A stretch of 60,229 nucleotides of DNA from a virus. Both the position numbers and the translations under genes were made by a program. The notes under the pieces were generated by a model. It had not been told where the DNA came from. It saw only the letters and a program-made list of their open reading frames with translations, and made no database searches. The stretch is taken from positions 1 through 60,229 of the IMG/VR virus record IMGVR_UViG_3300025101_000003; one strand, given 5' to 3'. Shown piece after piece: positions 2,661 through 17,801 of the stretch; the first letter of the stretch is position 1; each line of letters starts with the position of its first letter.

Positions 2661-4168
2661 AAACACCAAGAGATTACCAAGGAAGGTCTTTTGGTGTGGT
2701 TGTGGACAGGGCAACACAGGGTCATCGGAAGACACTCATTGACTTAGCAACTGGAATGGGCAAGACGTACATTATGTGTATGTTGGCTGCTGCTGCAAAG
2801 AAGCCGCTGCTCATCACGAACAGTTTGCCGATCATGAAGCAGGTGCTAAACGCTCTGTCTATTCACTTAGACCAAGACGTGGACTTAGAGCAAGCTGAGA
2901 ACTTTATTAGCAACAGTCCTATATTTAGACGCAAAGCCCAAGTTGCTAGCAAGGACTCGTTACTTCGAGGCAGGTATAAGCGAGAAGCCTTTAAGGACAG
3001 GACTATTGTTCTAGTCGACGAGGTTCATCACGGTTGCTCTAGTCCACGATTCATTGAGATGATGGAATACTTTGAGAGCATCGGTGCTTTCATTGTTGGG
3101 TTTTCTGCTACGCCGTACAAGGGCAACGGATTGCCTTTGCCATACTGGGGCCGTCCAGATTTTTCGTACTCGTTCCGCGATGCTGTCAGGGATGGTTGGC
3201 TTGTTCCTGAAGAGTGTGTTATTAGCGAAGCAATTTCTCATGACCTTTCGGCAGTCAAGACAGTGCAGGGTGATTTCCATAGCGGTCAACTAGAAGCCAT
3301 ATTATGCGAAGAGCAAGCTGTGCAGGAGGCTTCCAGTCTTGTGCTGCAGACATTTAATGGTCAGCCTAGCGTCATTTATTGCAGCGGTAAGAGACAGGCA
3401 GTCTTGCTGTTCGAGGTGTTTGAGCGATACGGTGCGACTGTTTCCATTGTTCACGACGGACAGACACAAGCCGAAAGATTCATGAACATGCAGATGTTTG
3501 AGACCGGCGAGTCGAAGATTATCATCAGCATTGATGTCTTGGGGTTTGGTTGGAATTTTCCTGAGCTCAGGAATATCTACAACTTGGCTCCAACGAAGTC
3601 TGTCACGAGAATATTGCAGCGTTTAGGACGTGGGGCCCGGACTAGGGACGCGGTACTCAAGGAAGGTATGACTCGCGAAGAACGTCTATCGGCCATTGCA
3701 GCCGACGAGAAGGACCATTTCAAGTGGTATGACGGAACAGAAACAATTTCTGGCTTCCAGATGAAGTCGACTCACGAGATAATGAACGAGGCGGAGGAAA
3801 GGGAACGCAACAAGAGAAGAAGAAGGGGTGTCCGGAAGAACAAGGGAGAAGGCAGCAATGAAGATTACGAGCCATCTGAGTATGATCCGGACGAACGTCG
3901 TGAACGTCGGCAAGGGATCGTTGTTGGTCACAGCTTTCAGCATGCCGACCGTGATTTAGATACAGCTCCAACCAAGAAGAAGCGTGGGTGGAGAATGCTT
4001 TGGGGTCCTCACAAAGGGAAGCTGATTGCAGACCTGCCGACAAGCTATTTGCAGAACGTGCTTCGGAATCGAAGGGTTCCTAAGACAGAAGAAGGAAAAC
4101 GCAAACATAAAGAGCCGCCGATTTACTCTGGAATCCGAAGAGAACTTCAGCTCAGAGAGGCTGTCTGA
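2657..4168 (+). CDS. SF2 DEAD/DEAH-type helicase with C-terminal DUF3820-like region
   Basis: The 503-residue protein has the superfamily 2 helicase motifs in order: Q-type DYQGR at the N-terminus, Walker A DLATGMGKT (29-37), Walker B DEVHHG (near 122-127), motif III GFSATPYKG, and motifs V/VI in DVLGFGWNFPE and RILQRLGRGART. The box is DEVH rather than DEAH. After residue about 380 there is a charged linker, then a C-terminal stretch (GPHKGKLIADLPTSYL) that resembles the DUF3820 pattern in which a G-K-H-x-G-K motif precedes D-L-P-x-x-Y-L. It probably unwinds or remodels DNA during recombination-dependent replication, since no replicative helicase or polymerase is encoded. Confidence 0.88.
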   Translation: MKTPRDYQGRSFGVVVDRATQGHRKTLIDLATGMGKTYIMCMLAAAAKKPLLITNSLPIMKQVLNALSIHLDQDVDLEQAENFISNSPIFRRKAQVASKDSLLRGRYKREAFKDRTIVLVDEVHHGCSSPRFIEMMEYFESIGAFIVGFSATPYKGNGLPLPYWGRPDFSYSFRDAVRDGWLVPEECVISEAISHDLSAVKTVQGDFHSGQLEAILCEEQAVQEASSLVLQTFNGQPSVIYCSGKRQAVLLFEVFERYGATVSIVHDGQTQAERFMNMQMFETGESKIIISIDVLGFGWNFPELRNIYNLAPTKSVTRILQRLGRGARTRDAVLKEGMTREERLSAIAADEKDHFKWYDGTETISGFQMKSTHEIMNEAEERERNKRRRRGVRKNKGEGSNEDYEPSEYDPDERRERRQGIVVGHSFQHADRDLDTAPTKKKRGWRMLWGPHKGKLIADLPTSYLQNVLRNRRVPKTEEGKRKHKEPPIYSGIRRELQLREAV

Positions 4169-9969: not shown

Positions 9970-10415
9970 TGAGGCGTCTCATTGGTATTGCTGTGCTGAT
10001 TGCTGCGTGTGTGATCGCTTATGTTGAGTATCAAACAGCTGCCCCTTCCCCTGCTCCGGTTGAGAACGACATACCTTTGAAGGGGCTGTTTATTGGACCC
10101 ACTGCAGGTGAAGACGCTTTGCTAATGGCTGCGTTGTGCGAAGAAGTTGCTTCAGAGATTGAGTGGGATGGCATGCAAGAAGATCCTGTGTTGAATACAG
10201 GTGTGCAGTATGATCTGTTGAGAGTCAGGGCTCGCAATCTTTTTCTCCGTGGAGACAGCATCGGCGAACGACAGCCCCATGTGGCTGATGCAGTTGGAGA
10301 ATACTTAACGAACAAGCTCGGCGTGTCTGGTGGTCCGGTGACTCCAGAGCAACGTGCGAAATGGGTGACGGCGTATAGAGAACTAGCGAGGTCGGCAGAA
10401 TATGCAGCGCGCTAG
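9969..10415 (+). CDS. Exported or membrane-anchored hypothetical protein
   Basis: The 148-residue protein starts with MRRLIGIAVLIAACVIAYV, a signal anchor with two Arg before the core. A Pro-rich linker and a mostly helical domain follow (ALCEEVASEIEW, LRVRARNLFLRG). It is likely to sit on the outer face of the inner membrane. It overlaps the papain-like peptidase gene by 14 bases, so the two products may work together. Confidence 0.6.
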   Translation: MRRLIGIAVLIAACVIAYVEYQTAAPSPAPVENDIPLKGLFIGPTAGEDALLMAALCEEVASEIEWDGMQEDPVLNTGVQYDLLRVRARNLFLRGDSIGERQPHVADAVGEYLTNKLGVSGGPVTPEQRAKWVTAYRELARSAEYAAR

Positions 10416-11442
10416 GATCTTTGCGATAGCGGCAATCCTTGGGGTTGCCTTGTGTAGTACGTGCTCGGCACCACGCCCAACTGCCGAGGCACTTGGTCTA
10501 GGGTACGATCCAAATCCCGAGGGAACGCAAGCATTCCTTAGTGAATTGGACCAGCCCCTATTCCGAGACGCCGGGAGGGAGGTGATCGAAAAATCTCGTG
10601 GCATTGACACGTTCCTTTATAGGTCAATGTTTCGTGCGCACCAAGCGCGATACAACAAGCCCTGGGTTCCCGGAAACCAAGGCTCTGTAGGCAGCTGTGT
10701 TGGCTGGGGCTTTAGTCAAGCAGCTTACTGTTCATTGTGTGTGGCGTGGTCAGAAGGAGAAGTCCCAGAGCCTCCGTTACTTACCAGTCCCACTAGCTGT
10801 TATGGTGGAAGTAGGGTTGAGGCGCGTGGAAAGCCTGAGGGGACTGGGGGCTACCGAGACGGAAGCTACGGTGGAGCTGCGGCCAAGTGGTTGTCGCAGT
10901 GGGGGCTGATCTTCCGGGACAATGTTGGCGGACATGACTTGCGGAAGTACTCGGTATCTCGGTGTAAAGACTGGGGCCATTGGGGTAACGGTGGAGAAGG
11001 CGACGAAGGTAAGCTGGACTCTATTGCCAAGCGGCACCCAGCTCTGCATGTTGCCCTAGTCACAAACTTTGATGAAGCCGCTGCAGCTATAGAGTCAGGT
11101 TTCTGTGTGGCTATATGCTCTGGTGTAGGTTTCAACCGCACTCGTAATGCTGATGGGTGGTGTGAACGAAAAGGCAGCTGGGCTCATTGCATGTATGCAG
11201 CAGCTGTGCGATACAAAAAGAATGGGAGCAGCCATGACGGACTGCTAATTATTAATTCGTGGGGGGATTATGTGAACGGAGGCAAGTTCCCCGACGATCA
11301 GCCGGACGGTTCTTTCTGGGCAAAGCGTGACGTGGTGGACTCGATGCTCGGTACTTGGCGCGATTCGTTCGCGATTGGTTCAGTTCAAGGATTCCCTTAT
11401 CGAGACCTTCATCATGGAGATTGGTTGGATGCAAGTCAGTAA
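10402..11442 (+). CDS. Secreted papain-like (C1-type) cysteine peptidase
   Basis: The 346-residue protein has an N-terminal signal sequence (RARIFAIAAILGVALCST) and a papain-type catalytic layout: oxyanion Gln93 and nucleophile Cys99 in GNQGSVGSCVGWG, His262 in GSWAHCMY, and Asn285 with Trp287 in LLIINSWGDYVNGG. Nothing like a long inhibitory propeptide is obvious beyond about 60 residues. It would act outside the cytoplasm. It lies in a cluster of membrane proteins where lysis genes might be expected, and no peptidoglycan hydrolase is recognisable elsewhere. It could attack envelope or surface-layer proteins during release; that is inference. The lipobox is poor, so it is probably not a lipoprotein. 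Confidence 0.8.
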   Translation: MQRARIFAIAAILGVALCSTCSAPRPTAEALGLGYDPNPEGTQAFLSELDQPLFRDAGREVIEKSRGIDTFLYRSMFRAHQARYNKPWVPGNQGSVGSCVGWGFSQAAYCSLCVAWSEGEVPEPPLLTSPTSCYGGSRVEARGKPEGTGGYRDGSYGGAAAKWLSQWGLIFRDNVGGHDLRKYSVSRCKDWGHWGNGGEGDEGKLDSIAKRHPALHVALVTNFDEAAAAIESGFCVAICSGVGFNRTRNADGWCERKGSWAHCMYAAAVRYKKNGSSHDGLLIINSWGDYVNGGKFPDDQPDGSFWAKRDVVDSMLGTWRDSFAIGSVQGFPYRDLHHGDWLDASQ

Positions 11443-12022: not shown

Positions 12023-12544
12023 GTGAAACGTCTTACAAAAAAACAAAGACGTCTAGCTGAAGATGCGCTTGAGATTGTCCCGAAAGCAATCCACGGTTTT
12101 TGCAAAGCTTATCCAGGTATCCGAAGAAAGCTTGCGCGCATCGACGCAGTTGAGGTAGCTAACCTCGCAGTTGTCAAGGCAGCTAAGACGTACGACAAAA
12201 GCAAGAGTAAAGTCACCACGTATTTCACGATGGCGATCTTCAACTCGTTGCTTAAGGAACTCGCACGGGAACAGCGACGAGGATGTGATGGTCCCGGGCG
12301 GGTCCCGCTTGAGTTCCTAGATTGCGATGAAACCATTGACCTTCGGTCTCGTGATGTACGAAACGCAATGTCTTCGATACCCGACGAGTCTCGGAGACTG
12401 CTTCACAGCAGGTACTTTCACGGTAAGACGCTTGAAGAAATGGCTGGTGAGTTTGGCATTGACCGTCGCACTGTAAGGCGAAGGTTGGAGATTGCTGTTA
12501 CCCAGTTATCATCCGCTTGGGATAACCTCGCTCCCTTGCGATGA
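12023..12544 (+). CDS. Phage sigma70-like sigma factor
   Basis: The 173-residue protein (GTG start after GGGGGGTAG) has a two-domain sigma layout. Residues 38-85 resemble region 2 (VEVANLAVVKAAKTYDKSKS, TYFTMAIFNSLLKEL). Residues 113-165 form a region 4-type helix-turn-helix (RYFHGKTLEEMAGEFGIDRR). It probably redirects host RNA polymerase to later phage promoters, since no RNA polymerase is encoded. Candidate targets are the two related promoters at 25029 and 27973. Its 3' end overlaps the convergent recombinase gene by 47 bases. Confidence 0.78.
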   Translation: MKRLTKKQRRLAEDALEIVPKAIHGFCKAYPGIRRKLARIDAVEVANLAVVKAAKTYDKSKSKVTTYFTMAIFNSLLKELAREQRRGCDGPGRVPLEFLDCDETIDLRSRDVRNAMSSIPDESRRLLHSRYFHGKTLEEMAGEFGIDRRTVRRRLEIAVTQLSSAWDNLAPLR

Positions 12545-13205
12545 GAGCTCGGCGGATTGTGTTCCGATTCCAGAAGCGACCATTAGTCCTTTTGATCCTG
12601 CGACTTCTTTGCTCTAGCTTCTCGTACGACAGGTGCTCTGACATACGCTTATCTCGTATGCTGCTGATCTGCTTGCGTTCTTCTTCGTCGGGAACAAAGT
12701 AGCCGTGACCGTTAGATCCTATCTTCTTCCATCCGTATGGCACGTAGGGTCCGTATGGTTTACCTTCAGCCTTTAGTTCTTGCATGGCAACTGAAGTACG
12801 AGCACCACCGACATCTCGTTCTAGTTCAGCAAAGACTGTCTGCGTTCTACTGAATGCCTTGCCGTAGGGATTCTCGAAGTCAATGTCTTGGTCAACACAC
12901 TTAAACGTAATCCCTTTTGCTTGAAACATCTTGACAGTCTTGATGCTGTCTTCGAGATCACGAAACGCTCTGTCTAGTTTAGACACAACAACGTAGTCTC
13001 CGGGCTGAGCTAAGAAGTAGATGCCTCTAGCTTCTGGTCTCTCAGAGAATGACTTGCCACCTGACACAGCTGCATCATAGCTCCAGCTAAACTCAACGTC
13101 ATCTCCGAATGTTCGCTTCGCGTACTCAGATACGGATTGCTGTTGGGCTCGTTCAGTAATATCTTGATCGTCTGTTGAGTGACGACCGTATCCCCATACT
13201 TTCAT
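12498..13205 (-). CDS. Serine recombinase (resolvase/invertase type)
   Basis: The 235-residue protein has the serine recombinase catalytic domain: Arg8 and nucleophile Ser10 in YGRHSTDDQ, then SKLDRAFRDL with Asp78, Arg79 and Arg82. A short DNA-binding part follows with PYGPYVPYGWKK, as in the recombinase domain, and a basic C-terminus. It is too short to be a classical large serine integrase with zinc ribbon and coiled coil. GGAGG lies five bases before the start. It could resolve multimers, invert a segment or integrate; no att or inversion sites were seen. It is convergent with and overlaps the sigma gene. Confidence 0.85.
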   Translation of the reverse strand: MKVWGYGRHSTDDQDITERAQQQSVSEYAKRTFGDDVEFSWSYDAAVSGGKSFSERPEARGIYFLAQPGDYVVVSKLDRAFRDLEDSIKTVKMFQAKGITFKCVDQDIDFENPYGKAFSRTQTVFAELERDVGGARTSVAMQELKAEGKPYGPYVPYGWKKIGSNGHGYFVPDEEERKQISSIRDKRMSEHLSYEKLEQRSRRIKRTNGRFWNRNTIRRALIARERGYPKRMITG

Positions 13206-14144: not shown

Positions 14145-14154
14145 GTAGTCTCCA

Positions 14155-14195
14155 AATAAAAAAGCGAGGGGCGCAGCACAATGGCCGCGCCCCTC
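14155..14195 (-). terminator. Strong intrinsic terminator on the minus strand
   Basis: Read on the minus strand, GAGGGGCGCGGC (14195-14184) pairs with GCTGCGCCCCTC (14177-14166), twelve pairs with one G-U, followed by GCTTTTTT. It ends transcription of the amidoligase/GATase genes before the next small gene at 14144. Confidence 0.9.
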
Positions 14196-14205
14196 TAGGT
14201 GTGGA

Positions 14206-14526
14206 TTAGTTATGGTGAGCACCAAGGTTGGTGCGATCAATCTTCGGTCCGATCAAGTCTGATGCAGCACGTAAGGCACGGAAGTTGTGGTGCCGTGTGT
14301 CCTCTACGTACCCAGTCTCGTACAGATGCCTGATGCTAGCAAGAGAGTACATGAAAGCAGTTAGTACTAGCGGGACGATCTCTTTTGTTTTCGCTTCCCG
14401 TTCAGACTTTTCTGCCCAAGTACCCTTTAGCTTTTCGTAGTGTGCTTTGAGGATCTCTGGTCCAAGCTCTGGGCCGTCACCGTACTCGTCGAACACGGCT
14501 CGGCTAGTGCTGGGCAAAGTCGACAC
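14206..14526 (-). CDS. Hypothetical protein downstream of the GATase
   Basis: The 106-residue protein overlaps the end of the GATase gene by 23 bases and is the last gene before the terminator at 14155-14195, so it belongs to the amidoligase transcript. It is helical with a hydrophobic middle (IVPLVLTAFMYSLASIRHLY) too polar for a clear membrane span. Function unknown; it may be an accessory to the amidoligase module. Confidence 0.6.
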   Translation of the reverse strand: MSTLPSTSRAVFDEYGDGPELGPEILKAHYEKLKGTWAEKSEREAKTKEIVPLVLTAFMYSLASIRHLYETGYVEDTRHHNFRALRAASDLIGPKIDRTNLGAHHN

Positions 14527-15556
14527 CCCCTAACTTGAAAGGATTGTCGTCTATCTGGTCACACAGGTGGCAGTACAGAACCTCTGCGGCTTCCGGGTCC
14601 CAGTTGACAAGTTCCTCAAGGGTTGCGAGGGGCAGTCCATTCGTTGCTAGGCACTGCACTGCCTCGTAGTCTGATGCTGACAAGTCCTTGAACGCTGCCA
14701 GTATTGGGTCGTCTGCATCAAGAGCCATCATGTCTCTGTCGTTCTCGTCAAGATGCGATGAGTCGTTGTACTGCTTCCTGTCGTTCTCCCGCCACAGCTT
14801 CTCGTGCTCATCAGCATCTGCTTGAGCCTGTTCATCAATCTCCTGAACGTGGCTCGTGTACTTGTTAGTGGACTTGTAGTAATCATCGAGGTAGGGGTTG
14901 CTTTCCTGGTGACCACTAGAGACGCCAACTCCTGTGGTAGTTGTGCCTCGGAAGTTCAACCAGTTGTTGGAGGCTGACGTCACCTTCTTAGGCTTGCCCG
15001 TGTACCGGCTGTAGCTGGTGTAGCTGTAGTTGCTGTACCAGTGCTTGTCTGGTGCTCGGTGTCCTAGATCTGAGTTCCAGATAGTGTGCTCGCCTGTTGA
15101 TTTGAGGAACACCATCTTGTTTCCGTTGCCAAGGAACTGCTCGCCAAGAAACGAACTGCCATGATTCCAAGGGAAGTTGCAGTCACCCTCACACATTGGA
15201 CGAAGCACCTGTGTTACGAAGTGCCATGTGTCGGACATCTTCTTGTTGATGTTGAGTTCTATGTCAAGTATGCCGTTGTGAATAACACACAAGTCTTCGG
15301 TAACTGCAAACGGATGACAGTTCTTGTCGTTGATCTCACCGCTTGTCCTGATCCTGAAGTGTACTAAAGCAGGGTATGCTCGGTACCTCTGGAACTTCTT
15401 CTTGAAATTATTGAACGACGTTGTGCCCTTCTGTGTGATGAGCTTGCCGTCCTTTGCTACAGCGAAACCCCAACCGTCTGGGTTAGACTTGAAGGCTCGC
15501 TTGTACGCGGCCCAGTCAGGCTGGGTCTTGCGTGGTTTGAATATTGCGATGCACAT
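14504..15556 (-). CDS. Class II glutamine amidotransferase (Ntn-hydrolase) protein
   Basis: The start is ATG 15556, so the protein begins Met-Cys-Ile-Ala-Ile-Phe; removal of Met exposes Cys as the N-terminal nucleophile, as in class II glutaminases. Other expected elements follow: NPDGWGFAVAKDGK (25-38), HFRIRTSG (66-73) with the substrate Arg, and HNG (93-95) in CVIHNGIL. The first about 120 of 350 residues form the glutaminase; the rest is Tyr/Ser/Asn-rich with an acidic C-terminus and is not recognised. It would hydrolyse glutamine to supply ammonia. The amidoligase genes end exactly at its start (TAATG), pointing to a shared reaction. Confidence 0.85.
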   Translation of the reverse strand: MCIAIFKPRKTQPDWAAYKRAFKSNPDGWGFAVAKDGKLITQKGTTSFNNFKKKFQRYRAYPALVHFRIRTSGEINDKNCHPFAVTEDLCVIHNGILDIELNINKKMSDTWHFVTQVLRPMCEGDCNFPWNHGSSFLGEQFLGNGNKMVFLKSTGEHTIWNSDLGHRAPDKHWYSNYSYTSYSRYTGKPKKVTSASNNWLNFRGTTTTGVGVSSGHQESNPYLDDYYKSTNKYTSHVQEIDEQAQADADEHEKLWRENDRKQYNDSSHLDENDRDMMALDADDPILAAFKDLSASDYEAVQCLATNGLPLATLEELVNWDPEAAEVLYCHLCDQIDDNPFKLGGVDFAQH

Positions 15557-16650
15557 TAGGCACCCCTTTCTGCTGTTCGAGTGTAAGAGCGGGAGATATC
15601 TACGAATGATCTGCCGCTTGGGACACTTGCCCCATTTGATCCCATCATGAATGAGTGTCGCATGGGTGATGCCTTCGCTACATCTAAGAACCATCTGCGA
15701 AGGAACGGATACTTGTGGTGATTCTCTCCGACGAACCATCCGTACGTTTTGTCGGAAGTATCGTCCAGCATATACAAAGGAGTTTCCTCCATGAGGTCGA
15801 TGATAGACTCAACGACTTCGATGTTGCGGAGAAGCATCAACGGGTTGAGAGATGAGCGAAAGCCCCTGAACTCAACAAGTGATCTTGGCTTGACGCGAAG
15901 CTGAGAATACTTCTCGTACCCAAGCATGTTGTCAAGCTCCTCTTCGTCGTAGTCTGAGTCCCCGCTGAAAGCACGACGTATGCTGTCGTACGCTTTGATG
16001 TCACTGCCGTACAACTTCCACGCACGCTCTCCGTTTACCATCGCTCGTCTCTTCAGGCGAACACTCCGAGTGTTGCAGTAGTTGGTTGGCTCACGCAAGA
16101 ACAGCGTCTTGTGCATACCGTAACGAGCGATATGGTTGATCCAGTACAAAGTCTTGCACCATGTCAACCGAGAAGCACTCCTGTCAGAGACAGTAACGTG
16201 CATGCCGCAGGACCTGTTAGTCCAAGCACCACCTGTCGGAAACCAACGACGACGGTTGCCTACCATCGACCGAAGTGCATGCCGGTAGGTAGTTGGAACC
16301 GTGTTCGCCTTGTGCTGCTTGCGGCTGAACAACCAGTGATAGAGCGTGTGCTCTGTCTTGGTAAGCGGCACGGTCTTGAGCTCTGCACTCGGCCCACTGC
16401 GAGCCCTGATTGAACCGTCATCGGTGGGCAGGTAGTAGGCGTCAGCAATCTTCACGCCTAGCAACTCGTCCTGAAGCCAGTTCCATATTGAGTCAGCTTC
16501 TTCAGCCTCGTACTCATCGAAGTTATCCATCTCAACCTCGATCCCGTACAGTCTGTTGCTGCTTGTTTGAGACTGCCGCAACCTATGTCTTCTGTCATAG
16601 TTCAGATGACTAAGGGGACAGCAGTCGTATCCGTGGATATCAGTCGGCAT
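15556..16650 (-). CDS. Amidoligase 1 (glutamine-synthetase-fold COOH-NH2 ligase)
   Basis: The start is ATG 16650 after GGAGGAGG, giving 364 residues. It shows the signature of the putative amidoligase (Amidoligase_2) family: YGIEVEM (35-41) and AELKTVPL (89-96) for metal/ATP carboxylates, DGSI (78-81), CGMHVTVS (148-155), and a late LVEFRGFRSSLNP with the E-x-R substrate/phosphate pair. These ATP-dependent enzymes join a carboxylate to an amine. The N-terminus has a CC pair. It overlaps amidoligase 2 by 11 bases and abuts the GATase. Substrate unknown; host peptide, cell-wall peptide or a small metabolite are possibilities. Confidence 0.8.
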   Translation of the reverse strand: MPTDIHGYDCCPLSHLNYDRRHRLRQSQTSSNRLYGIEVEMDNFDEYEAEEADSIWNWLQDELLGVKIADAYYLPTDDGSIRARSGPSAELKTVPLTKTEHTLYHWLFSRKQHKANTVPTTYRHALRSMVGNRRRWFPTGGAWTNRSCGMHVTVSDRSASRLTWCKTLYWINHIARYGMHKTLFLREPTNYCNTRSVRLKRRAMVNGERAWKLYGSDIKAYDSIRRAFSGDSDYDEEELDNMLGYEKYSQLRVKPRSLVEFRGFRSSLNPLMLLRNIEVVESIIDLMEETPLYMLDDTSDKTYGWFVGENHHKYPFLRRWFLDVAKASPMRHSFMMGSNGASVPSGRSFVDISRSYTRTAERGA

Positions 16651-17740
16651 CGTACCTCCTCCATGCGCCCAGAGCTCTGTCTGGATCTTCTGTGGGTAGT
16701 TTAGAACAAAAGTCTGCGTACTCAACAAAGTCTGCCCACATCTTGGCGTGTGCAGTTCTGTCGATTGCAGCGATACTATAGAAGCGAAGGAACTCTATCG
16801 AGCACTCGATACAAGTGAGTGCGTCTGACAATTCCTTGAGTGACGCCGGTGACTTGGGTAGTCGTATCTCGATAGTCTTCCGTCGATGAGATACTGCGTC
16901 AGTCCTGCTGAACTGGCGTCTGTTGATGCGTGAGTTAGCCCCTCGGCTGTATGTCCTTGGGCGATCTCTCCATCCCGGTCGTTGATACGGAGTCTGAATA
17001 CCTTCAATCGGTCCGGGCTCACAGTAGTCTGTGCATTTCCTGCCGAACACATTGCCTTGGTACCCCTGGTTTGACACGATGTTCCAGAACAACGACAGCT
17101 TGCCGACGAGCAAAGGGGTTAAGTCTCTGCGGTCGACATGAACATGCAGTCCGCAGTCCGGCCTGTCCTGAAAGTAATCGAAGTCTACCGTGCTCCAACA
17201 AGCAAGGTGGTTGGCAGTTGTCGCTGGTATGCAGCTGAACTCTGTGCCGATGCCAGGAATGCTTCCGTCATTCTTTGCAATGCAATAAGCACTGGCCTCT
17301 CTTTTCGACAACATGCTGTAGTTGCGATTGAGTTGTGCGTACAGCTCAGTGAATGCGTACGAAGCTGCCACTTTAGCGGAAGCCCCGCGTGGATTGTTAA
17401 GAACATCGTCACGATAAGAGAGTTCAACCTCGATCCCAAGACGGACGCTGCTTTGTCTGAACTTGCGGCTGAAGTTAGTCTTCTCGATTGGGTCTGCTCG
17501 GTAGTGATGATTGCGGATCGTGTACTTCGGGGGGTCTTTGAGCCGGAGGCTACCAACGATCATCAACTGGCCGATTGTTGCAGAGTAGTCCGGCATGTCG
17601 TAAGCAACCGGATAGAGCCAACCACCACAACTGTCACAACGAGCCGCCGTCCTCATCCGAAGCCTTGACGGGTGTCCGTTGCACTCGCACTGGCTCTGCA
17701 TTGAATTAGGCAGGTCGCTTATGGGTATTGCTTCAGGCAT
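16640..17740 (-). CDS. Amidoligase 2 with N-terminal zinc-ribbon-like segment
   Basis: The 366-residue protein has the same family signature as its neighbour but is clearly diverged: LGIEVELS (101-108), KNDGSI (156-161), GTEFSCIP (165-172), CGLHVHVD (196-203) and TIEIRLPKSP (289-298). In addition, residues 18-38 carry CEC and CDSC pairs, a probable zinc ribbon not seen in amidoligase 1. All acidic and His positions expected for catalysis look intact in both copies, which argues for two sequential or complementary reactions rather than decay. Its leader carries hairpin copy G and a terminator-like stem (17767-17801). Confidence 0.8.
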   Translation of the reverse strand: MPEAIPISDLPNSMQSQCECNGHPSRLRMRTAARCDSCGGWLYPVAYDMPDYSATIGQLMIVGSLRLKDPPKYTIRNHHYRADPIEKTNFSRKFRQSSVRLGIEVELSYRDDVLNNPRGASAKVAASYAFTELYAQLNRNYSMLSKREASAYCIAKNDGSIPGIGTEFSCIPATTANHLACWSTVDFDYFQDRPDCGLHVHVDRRDLTPLLVGKLSLFWNIVSNQGYQGNVFGRKCTDYCEPGPIEGIQTPYQRPGWRDRPRTYSRGANSRINRRQFSRTDAVSHRRKTIEIRLPKSPASLKELSDALTCIECSIEFLRFYSIAAIDRTAHAKMWADFVEYADFCSKLPTEDPDRALGAWRRYDAD

Positions 17741-17766: not shown

Positions 17767-17801
17767 AAAAGAGGGACAGGAACACGCTGCTCCTGCCCCT
17801 C
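17767..17801 (-). terminator. Terminator-like stem-loop before amidoligase 2
   Basis: On the minus strand GAGGGGCAGGA (17801-17791) pairs with TCCTGTCCCTC (17781-17771), eleven pairs with one G-U, followed by TTTTCTCC. It sits only 27 bases before the amidoligase 2 start, leaving no room for a promoter after it, so it may act as an attenuator or a stabilising 5' hairpin rather than a simple end of transcription. Confidence 0.75.

Follow-up and report, generated by a model that had tools for sequence, protein, structure and literature searches.

A predicted amidoligase-glutaminase unit with a second, deeply diverged ligase in a virus record

Amidoligase_2 ligases are ascribed a glutamine-synthetase fold, and the founding comparative study of the group is said to be that of Iyer in 2009. 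An amidoligase paired with a glutamine amidotransferase (GATase) is found in the OM43 phages MEP401/402 and in over 30 related viral genomes (PMC10580990), and the planctomycete Phage-ZRK32 also encodes both enzymes (PMC10945688). In the LUZ24-like UFV-P2, ligases of the families PF14395 and PF12224 accompany a GATase (PMC3890496). RIO-1-like phages carry a seven-gene cassette, including two amidoligases, an ATP-grasp enzyme, a gamma-glutamyl cyclotransferase and a GATase, which is hypothesised to change the host surface against superinfection (PMC5498523). The pair itself is widespread, and cassettes of two amidoligases with a GATase are already described in RIO-1/phiEco32-type phages; in the accounts of phage amidoligase-GATase pairs consulted here, no tested substrate was found. 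Here we describe a related unit in the virus record IMGVR_UViG_3300025101_000003, whose 60,229 bases form the window analysed (coordinates are window positions) and which, besides a likely terminase, also encodes head, portal and tail proteins. On the minus strand, from 17740 to 14206, four genes follow each other in the order A1-A2-GAT-X, each overlapping its neighbour. A1 and A2 are predicted amidoligases and GAT a predicted class II GATase. The unusual feature is A2, a further ligase that is deeply diverged, lies between A1 and GAT and was found only here and in L002, a related viral contig. The parts of the unit are:

17771..17801, minus strand: terminator-like hairpin with a 14-pair stem and a T-rich tract, just upstream of A1
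16640..17740, minus strand: A1, predicted Amidoligase_2-like ligase, 366 amino acids
15556..16650, minus strand: A2, predicted second, deeply diverged Amidoligase_2-like ligase, 364 amino acids
14504..15556, minus strand: GAT, predicted class II glutamine amidotransferase, 350 amino acids, with its ATG at 15556
14206..14517, minus strand: X, small conserved protein, about 103 amino acids from the TTG at 14517 (the open reading frame is listed from the GTG at 14526)
14166..14195, minus strand: terminator-like hairpin with a 12-pair stem and a T run, directly 3' of X, closing the four-gene unit

Are A1 and A2 amidoligases? The first-pass annotation of this stretch had named profile searches as a check, and those with Pfam alone give a weak answer: A1 scores 15.7 bits against Amidoligase_2 (PF12224), below the gathering cut-off of 22, the Pfam scan gave no match of A2 to this family, and neither protein is a Pfam-defined member. 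MEP401, an accepted phage member, is likewise borderline at 21 bits. Because the Pfam scores were weak, profile-level comparison was used. A ligase hidden Markov model (HMM) was built from 23 Amidoligase_2-type phage and bacterial relatives, with the present phage lineage excluded, and was searched against the 1402 six-frame reading-frame segments of the window. It matched only A1 (E 6.8e-22) and A2 (E 2.4e-15), the next value being 0.08. Among 2000 shuffled versions the top scores were 7 bits (A1) and 6 bits (A2), while the real proteins scored 74 and 53, and hhalign gave a probability of 98% for each ligase against phage Amidoligase_2 ligases. The proposal of two diverged amidoligases is thus upheld at the level of profiles, and both proteins are predicted members of an Amidoligase_2-like superfamily.

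Motif columns were taken from an alignment of 29 ligases. The ExE motif, the Asp and Ser of DGS, the Glu that follows, the first His of HxH and the ExR motif are invariant in all 29, including A1 (E104xE106, D158-G-S160, E167, H199xH201, E291xR293) and A2 (E38xE40, D78-G-S80, E90, H151-V-T153, E260xR262). Residues of the metal site are conserved in both proteins. A1 has an N-terminal CxC..CxxC zinc ribbon (C18, C20, C35, C38). This had been taken for an addition to one of the two ligases, but zinc-ribbon-like cysteines are usual among related ligases; since the ribbon is common in the group it is not an addition to A1, and it is A2 that lacks an N-terminal ribbon.

A GATase HMM, built in the same way and searched against the same 1402 segments, found GAT as its sole match in the window (E 8.4e-53; next 0.7). 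Pfam GATase_4 scores 20.4 bits against GAT (E 2.7e-4; cut-off 23), NCBIfam gives a partial match to glmS (E 1.2e-8), and the profile of the GAT family hits the glutaminase domain of GlmS (1xff, 2.4e-9). The class II catalytic set is present: Cys2 as N-terminal nucleophile (Ntn) after the initiator Met, Arg68, His93-Asn94-Gly95 and Asp109. By sequence, GAT is therefore what had been proposed from its N-terminal Cys, a class II (Ntn) glutaminase-type enzyme with its catalytic residues in place; it also carries a long C-terminal extension. For X, searches of Pfam, PHROGs, NCBIfam and PADLOC gave nothing convincing. None of the cassette proteins has a segment of transmembrane strength (maximum 19-residue hydropathy 1.5). 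A reading of the unit as a defence system was rejected, being without PADLOC support.

The genes are tightly coupled. A1, A2 and GAT are the three adjacent, overlapping genes of the first-pass annotation, at about 14.5-17.7 kb, and the boundary given there, 14206, also takes in a fourth gene, X, which overlaps GAT. A1 and A2 overlap by 11 bases, the A2 stop and the GAT ATG have one base in common (TAATG), and the start of X falls within the 3' end of GAT. For A2, the ATG at 16650 is preferred as the start, given its conservation with L002 and a strong GGAGGAGG upstream of the ATG. Both flanking hairpins occur at equivalent places in L002, the one after X with the same sequence, and the four genes appear to form a compact unit between these two conserved elements. 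Because the first hairpin ends only 30 bases before A1, it may be part of a leader and not the end of a separate transcript. With its overlapping genes, conserved hairpins and no extra cassette genes, this compact unit would be a convenient minimal set to express.

All four genes are kept in L002, with protein identities of 61-77% and ratios of nonsynonymous to synonymous substitution rates (dN/dS) of 0.12-0.24, and all four are under purifying selection. The ratio is 0.20 for A1 and 0.12, the lowest of the four cassette genes, for A2; X, which has the same position and the same overlap with GAT in L002, is 61% identical there at a ratio of 0.24. The neighbouring genes tested against L002 are 89-94% identical, which would make the cassette either faster-evolving or of older divergence than its surroundings.

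Do the ligase and the GATase act together? Of the viral loci retrieved with A1 or GAT, most have a ligase gene immediately before the GATase gene, usually overlapping it, and 38 of the 80 bacterial loci retrieved with the ligase alignment also have a ligase immediately before a GATase. The recurrence of this order in viral and bacterial loci argues that the two proteins would work together. The best phage matches of A1 and of GAT are both in MEP401/402. These phages (Methylophilales) and mycobacteriophage Marvin resemble the present locus in having a ligase directly before the GATase, zinc-ribbon-like cysteines and the same catalytic motifs. However, they have one ligase per GATase, whereas here a second, diverged ligase lies between the two and X comes after GAT, and the MEP ligases share only about 27% identity with A1.

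Where did A2 come from? In the ligase tree, A1 clusters with OM43-type phage ligases (bootstrap 100), while A2 is a long branch with no supported placement. We rejected the idea that A2 arose by recent tandem duplication of A1: the two proteins share 21% identity across the trimmed alignment of ligases and do not cluster on the tree, A2 being weakly placed. Since a ligase directly precedes the GATase in other phages, A2 looks like an insertion into an older A1-GAT pair; loss of A2 elsewhere could be the alternative. No relatives of A2 were found in phage records or in the genome collection (two motif patterns), and the search of viral contigs returned L002 only. Among the loci fetched, two ligases with a GATase were otherwise seen only in L053, a 176-kb viral contig (IMGVR_UViG_3300028734_000012) in which a single GATase has two PF12224 ligases, scoring 32 and 24 bits, in its vicinity. 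The L053 ligases pair with each other on the tree (bootstrap 100), lie on either side of the GATase with gaps between the genes, and each retain HxH; by contrast, the divergence between A1 and A2 is deep, and A1, A2 and GAT overlap. The first-pass annotation knew of no characterised phage version of this trio. The rarity claimed there is weaker than stated: the pair is common in phages and also bacterial, and other viral loci mostly have one ligase with a GATase; what was found only in this window and L002 is the unit with the inserted, diverged ligase. Such an insertion may be one route by which these modules diversify.

Two observations concern the relatives. In about 17 OM43-type contigs (L005, L007, L026-L038), an open reading frame of about 54-68 amino acids (DVFWKDGWDNC..) runs into the start of the ligase gene, and it is possible that it is a third member of that module. 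The 54-residue form was rejected as a candidate substrate, having no counterpart in the window. In Butyricicoccus pullicaecorum DSM 23266, six ligase loci lie on separate contigs (L084, L103, L111, L113, L115, L123) and a GATase follows in five of them; this suggests mobile copies.

How would the unit work? On balance we favour a cytoplasmic, glutamine- and ATP-dependent amide-forming system, and the glutamine-dependent amide chemistry within it is rather likely. GAT would free ammonia from glutamine and hand it to a bound ligase, which would use ATP to activate a carboxylate as an acyl phosphate and would then amidate it. Ammonia would flow from GAT to A1 and perhaps also to A2. There are links to gamma-glutamyl chemistry elsewhere: in phage C75C1 the GATase and a gamma-glutamyl cyclotransferase form one fused protein, a hint that the wider family takes part in such chemistry, and StenR_269 has GATases, ATP-grasp, GGACT and PF12224 genes together. 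A1 would be the primary partner of GAT, because it groups with ligases that directly precede the GATase in other phages. A2, presumably a later and diverged addition, is probably active, if with some reserve, and would most likely act on a second carboxylate or in a second step. The earlier idea of a glutamine-dependent amidation module thus survives as the best reading of the sequence evidence, with the qualification that the two ligases are unequally canonical.

What might be amidated? Peptide carboxylates are the likeliest kind of target, be it in a cell-wall precursor, at a protein end or on a side chain. A cell-wall peptide precursor is the best published guess, and a tentative one. The block on superinfection raised in the first-pass annotation corresponds to the guess published for phiEco32-type cassettes and would be a guess here too. 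MurT-GatD has the folds of a Mur ligase and a class I GATase, unlike this unit. In that system, separate ligase and glutaminase proteins amidate a peptide carboxylate, that of peptidoglycan D-Glu (PMC3267633). The two systems would share a working principle and have no relationship.

Several findings weigh against the amidation reading. A2 has Thr at the second His of HxH, where 27 of the 29 aligned ligases have His, and this Thr is exclusive to A2 and its L002 counterpart. The Asn of an RYxxxN motif, present in 25 of the 29, is Ser in A1 and Arg in A2, whose lineages are the sole ones without it; the Tyr of the same motif is missing in A1 and kept in A2. The claim that all catalytic positions are intact therefore stands for ExE, DGS, the following Glu, the first His and ExR in both ligases, and fails for the second His of A2 and for the RYxxxN Asn of both. 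AlphaFold models of A1 and A2, made from two-sequence alignments, have a pLDDT of about 31-33, and a sequence search of the PDB with the ligase profile gave no significant solved relative. For more than half of the fetched bacterial ligase loci, the stretch retrieved gave no GATase match at the cut-off applied. The RIO-1/phiEco32/LUZ24 'peptidoglycan modification' cassette is similar in having more than one amidoligase with a GATase per cluster and a predicted peptide modification, but ATP-grasp and gamma-glutamyl cyclotransferase genes belong to it as well, and UFV-P2 adds a PF14395 ligase; searches here found no such genes. The window has no match to PF06094, PF08443 (RimK, the only ATP-grasp family searched this way) or PF14395 at E <= 1. 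Without cyclotransferase, COOH-NH2_lig and RimK matches, the fuller cassette behind the cell-wall idea is absent here.

Could A2 instead be a non-catalytic or regulatory partner of A1, a pseudoenzyme subunit, with the chemistry carried out by A1 and GAT only? It alone of the two ligases has lost the second His, Arg replaces its conserved Asn, it is without the zinc ribbon and unplaced on the tree, and a pair without A2 suffices in most phages. However, ExE, DGS, the following Glu, the first His, Arg and ExR are kept in both copies, and A2 has the lowest dN/dS of the cassette. Moreover, two ligase-like proteins of StenR_269, one of them annotated as L-glutamine synthetase, have HVN at the HxH place by eye, so that a ligase lacking the second His is not necessarily inactive. 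We therefore regard an inactive A2 as doubtful.

Glutamine-synthetase-fold ligases of the glutamate-cysteine ligase type use amines and not ammonia. The present ligases might likewise couple an amino acid or another amine to a carboxylate, forming isopeptide or gamma-glutamyl bonds, while GAT would remove or recycle amide groups and feed no ammonia. The fusion of the module GATase to a cyclotransferase in C75C1 would fit this reading too, and the cassette GATase has been listed among degradation genes (PMC5498523). Against this, the regular, overlapping ligase-to-GATase order across phages fits an ammonia-supplying partner, and no cyclotransferase was found in the window; the coupling of amines is a possible but not a likely account.

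In a more elaborate variant of the amidation reading, A1 and A2 would work only as a heteromer, one amidoligase whose active site the two share or divide between them: A1 keeps the HxH lost in A2 and A2 keeps the RYxxxN Tyr lost in A1. One GATase would feed both, X might direct them, and the outcome would be a two-step peptide modification unseen in other phages. This is unlikely.

Bacteria generally possess glutamine synthetase and glutamate synthase already, and A1 and A2 are far from those families, which makes it quite improbable that the module simply aids host nitrogen assimilation as auxiliary metabolism, with no special modification. That reading was offered for the amidoligase and GATase of Phage-ZRK32, on evidence of cell growth with the whole phage and not from tests of the genes (PMC10945688). 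Most improbable is a nucleic acid target, through amidation of a carboxylated base or tRNA: the OM43-type pair adjoins primase, helicase and polymerase genes and zinc ribbons can bind nucleic acid, but that gene position may merely reflect early expression, and, of the window proteins scanned, none was recognised as a partner in base modification.

Other genes of the window give few clues to the host: the major head protein has no match and the likely terminase only distant ones. On the plus strand at 10402-11442 lies a gene for a 346-residue protein in which papain-like motifs can be made out by eye (QGSVGSCVGWGF, AHCM, LLIINSWG) and whose N-terminus resembles that of a lipoprotein; it has no convincing Pfam, PDB or NCBIfam match and is 94% identical in L002. 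A sigma-70 family factor (12023-12544, plus strand) and a protein with a serine resolvase N-terminal domain (12498-13205, minus strand) are encoded convergently, with overlapping ends. Past the hairpin after X, the window (about 14150-14166) and L002 (about 3530-3560) have TTTGGAGACTACATG in common, while the gene beyond it differs, being a 133-residue open reading frame in the window and a resolvase in L002; this suggests a modular joint. Between 11900 and 23300, both strands together have 26 terminator-like hairpins against 9.4 in shuffles, an excess of about threefold that may be a sign of many small transcription units.

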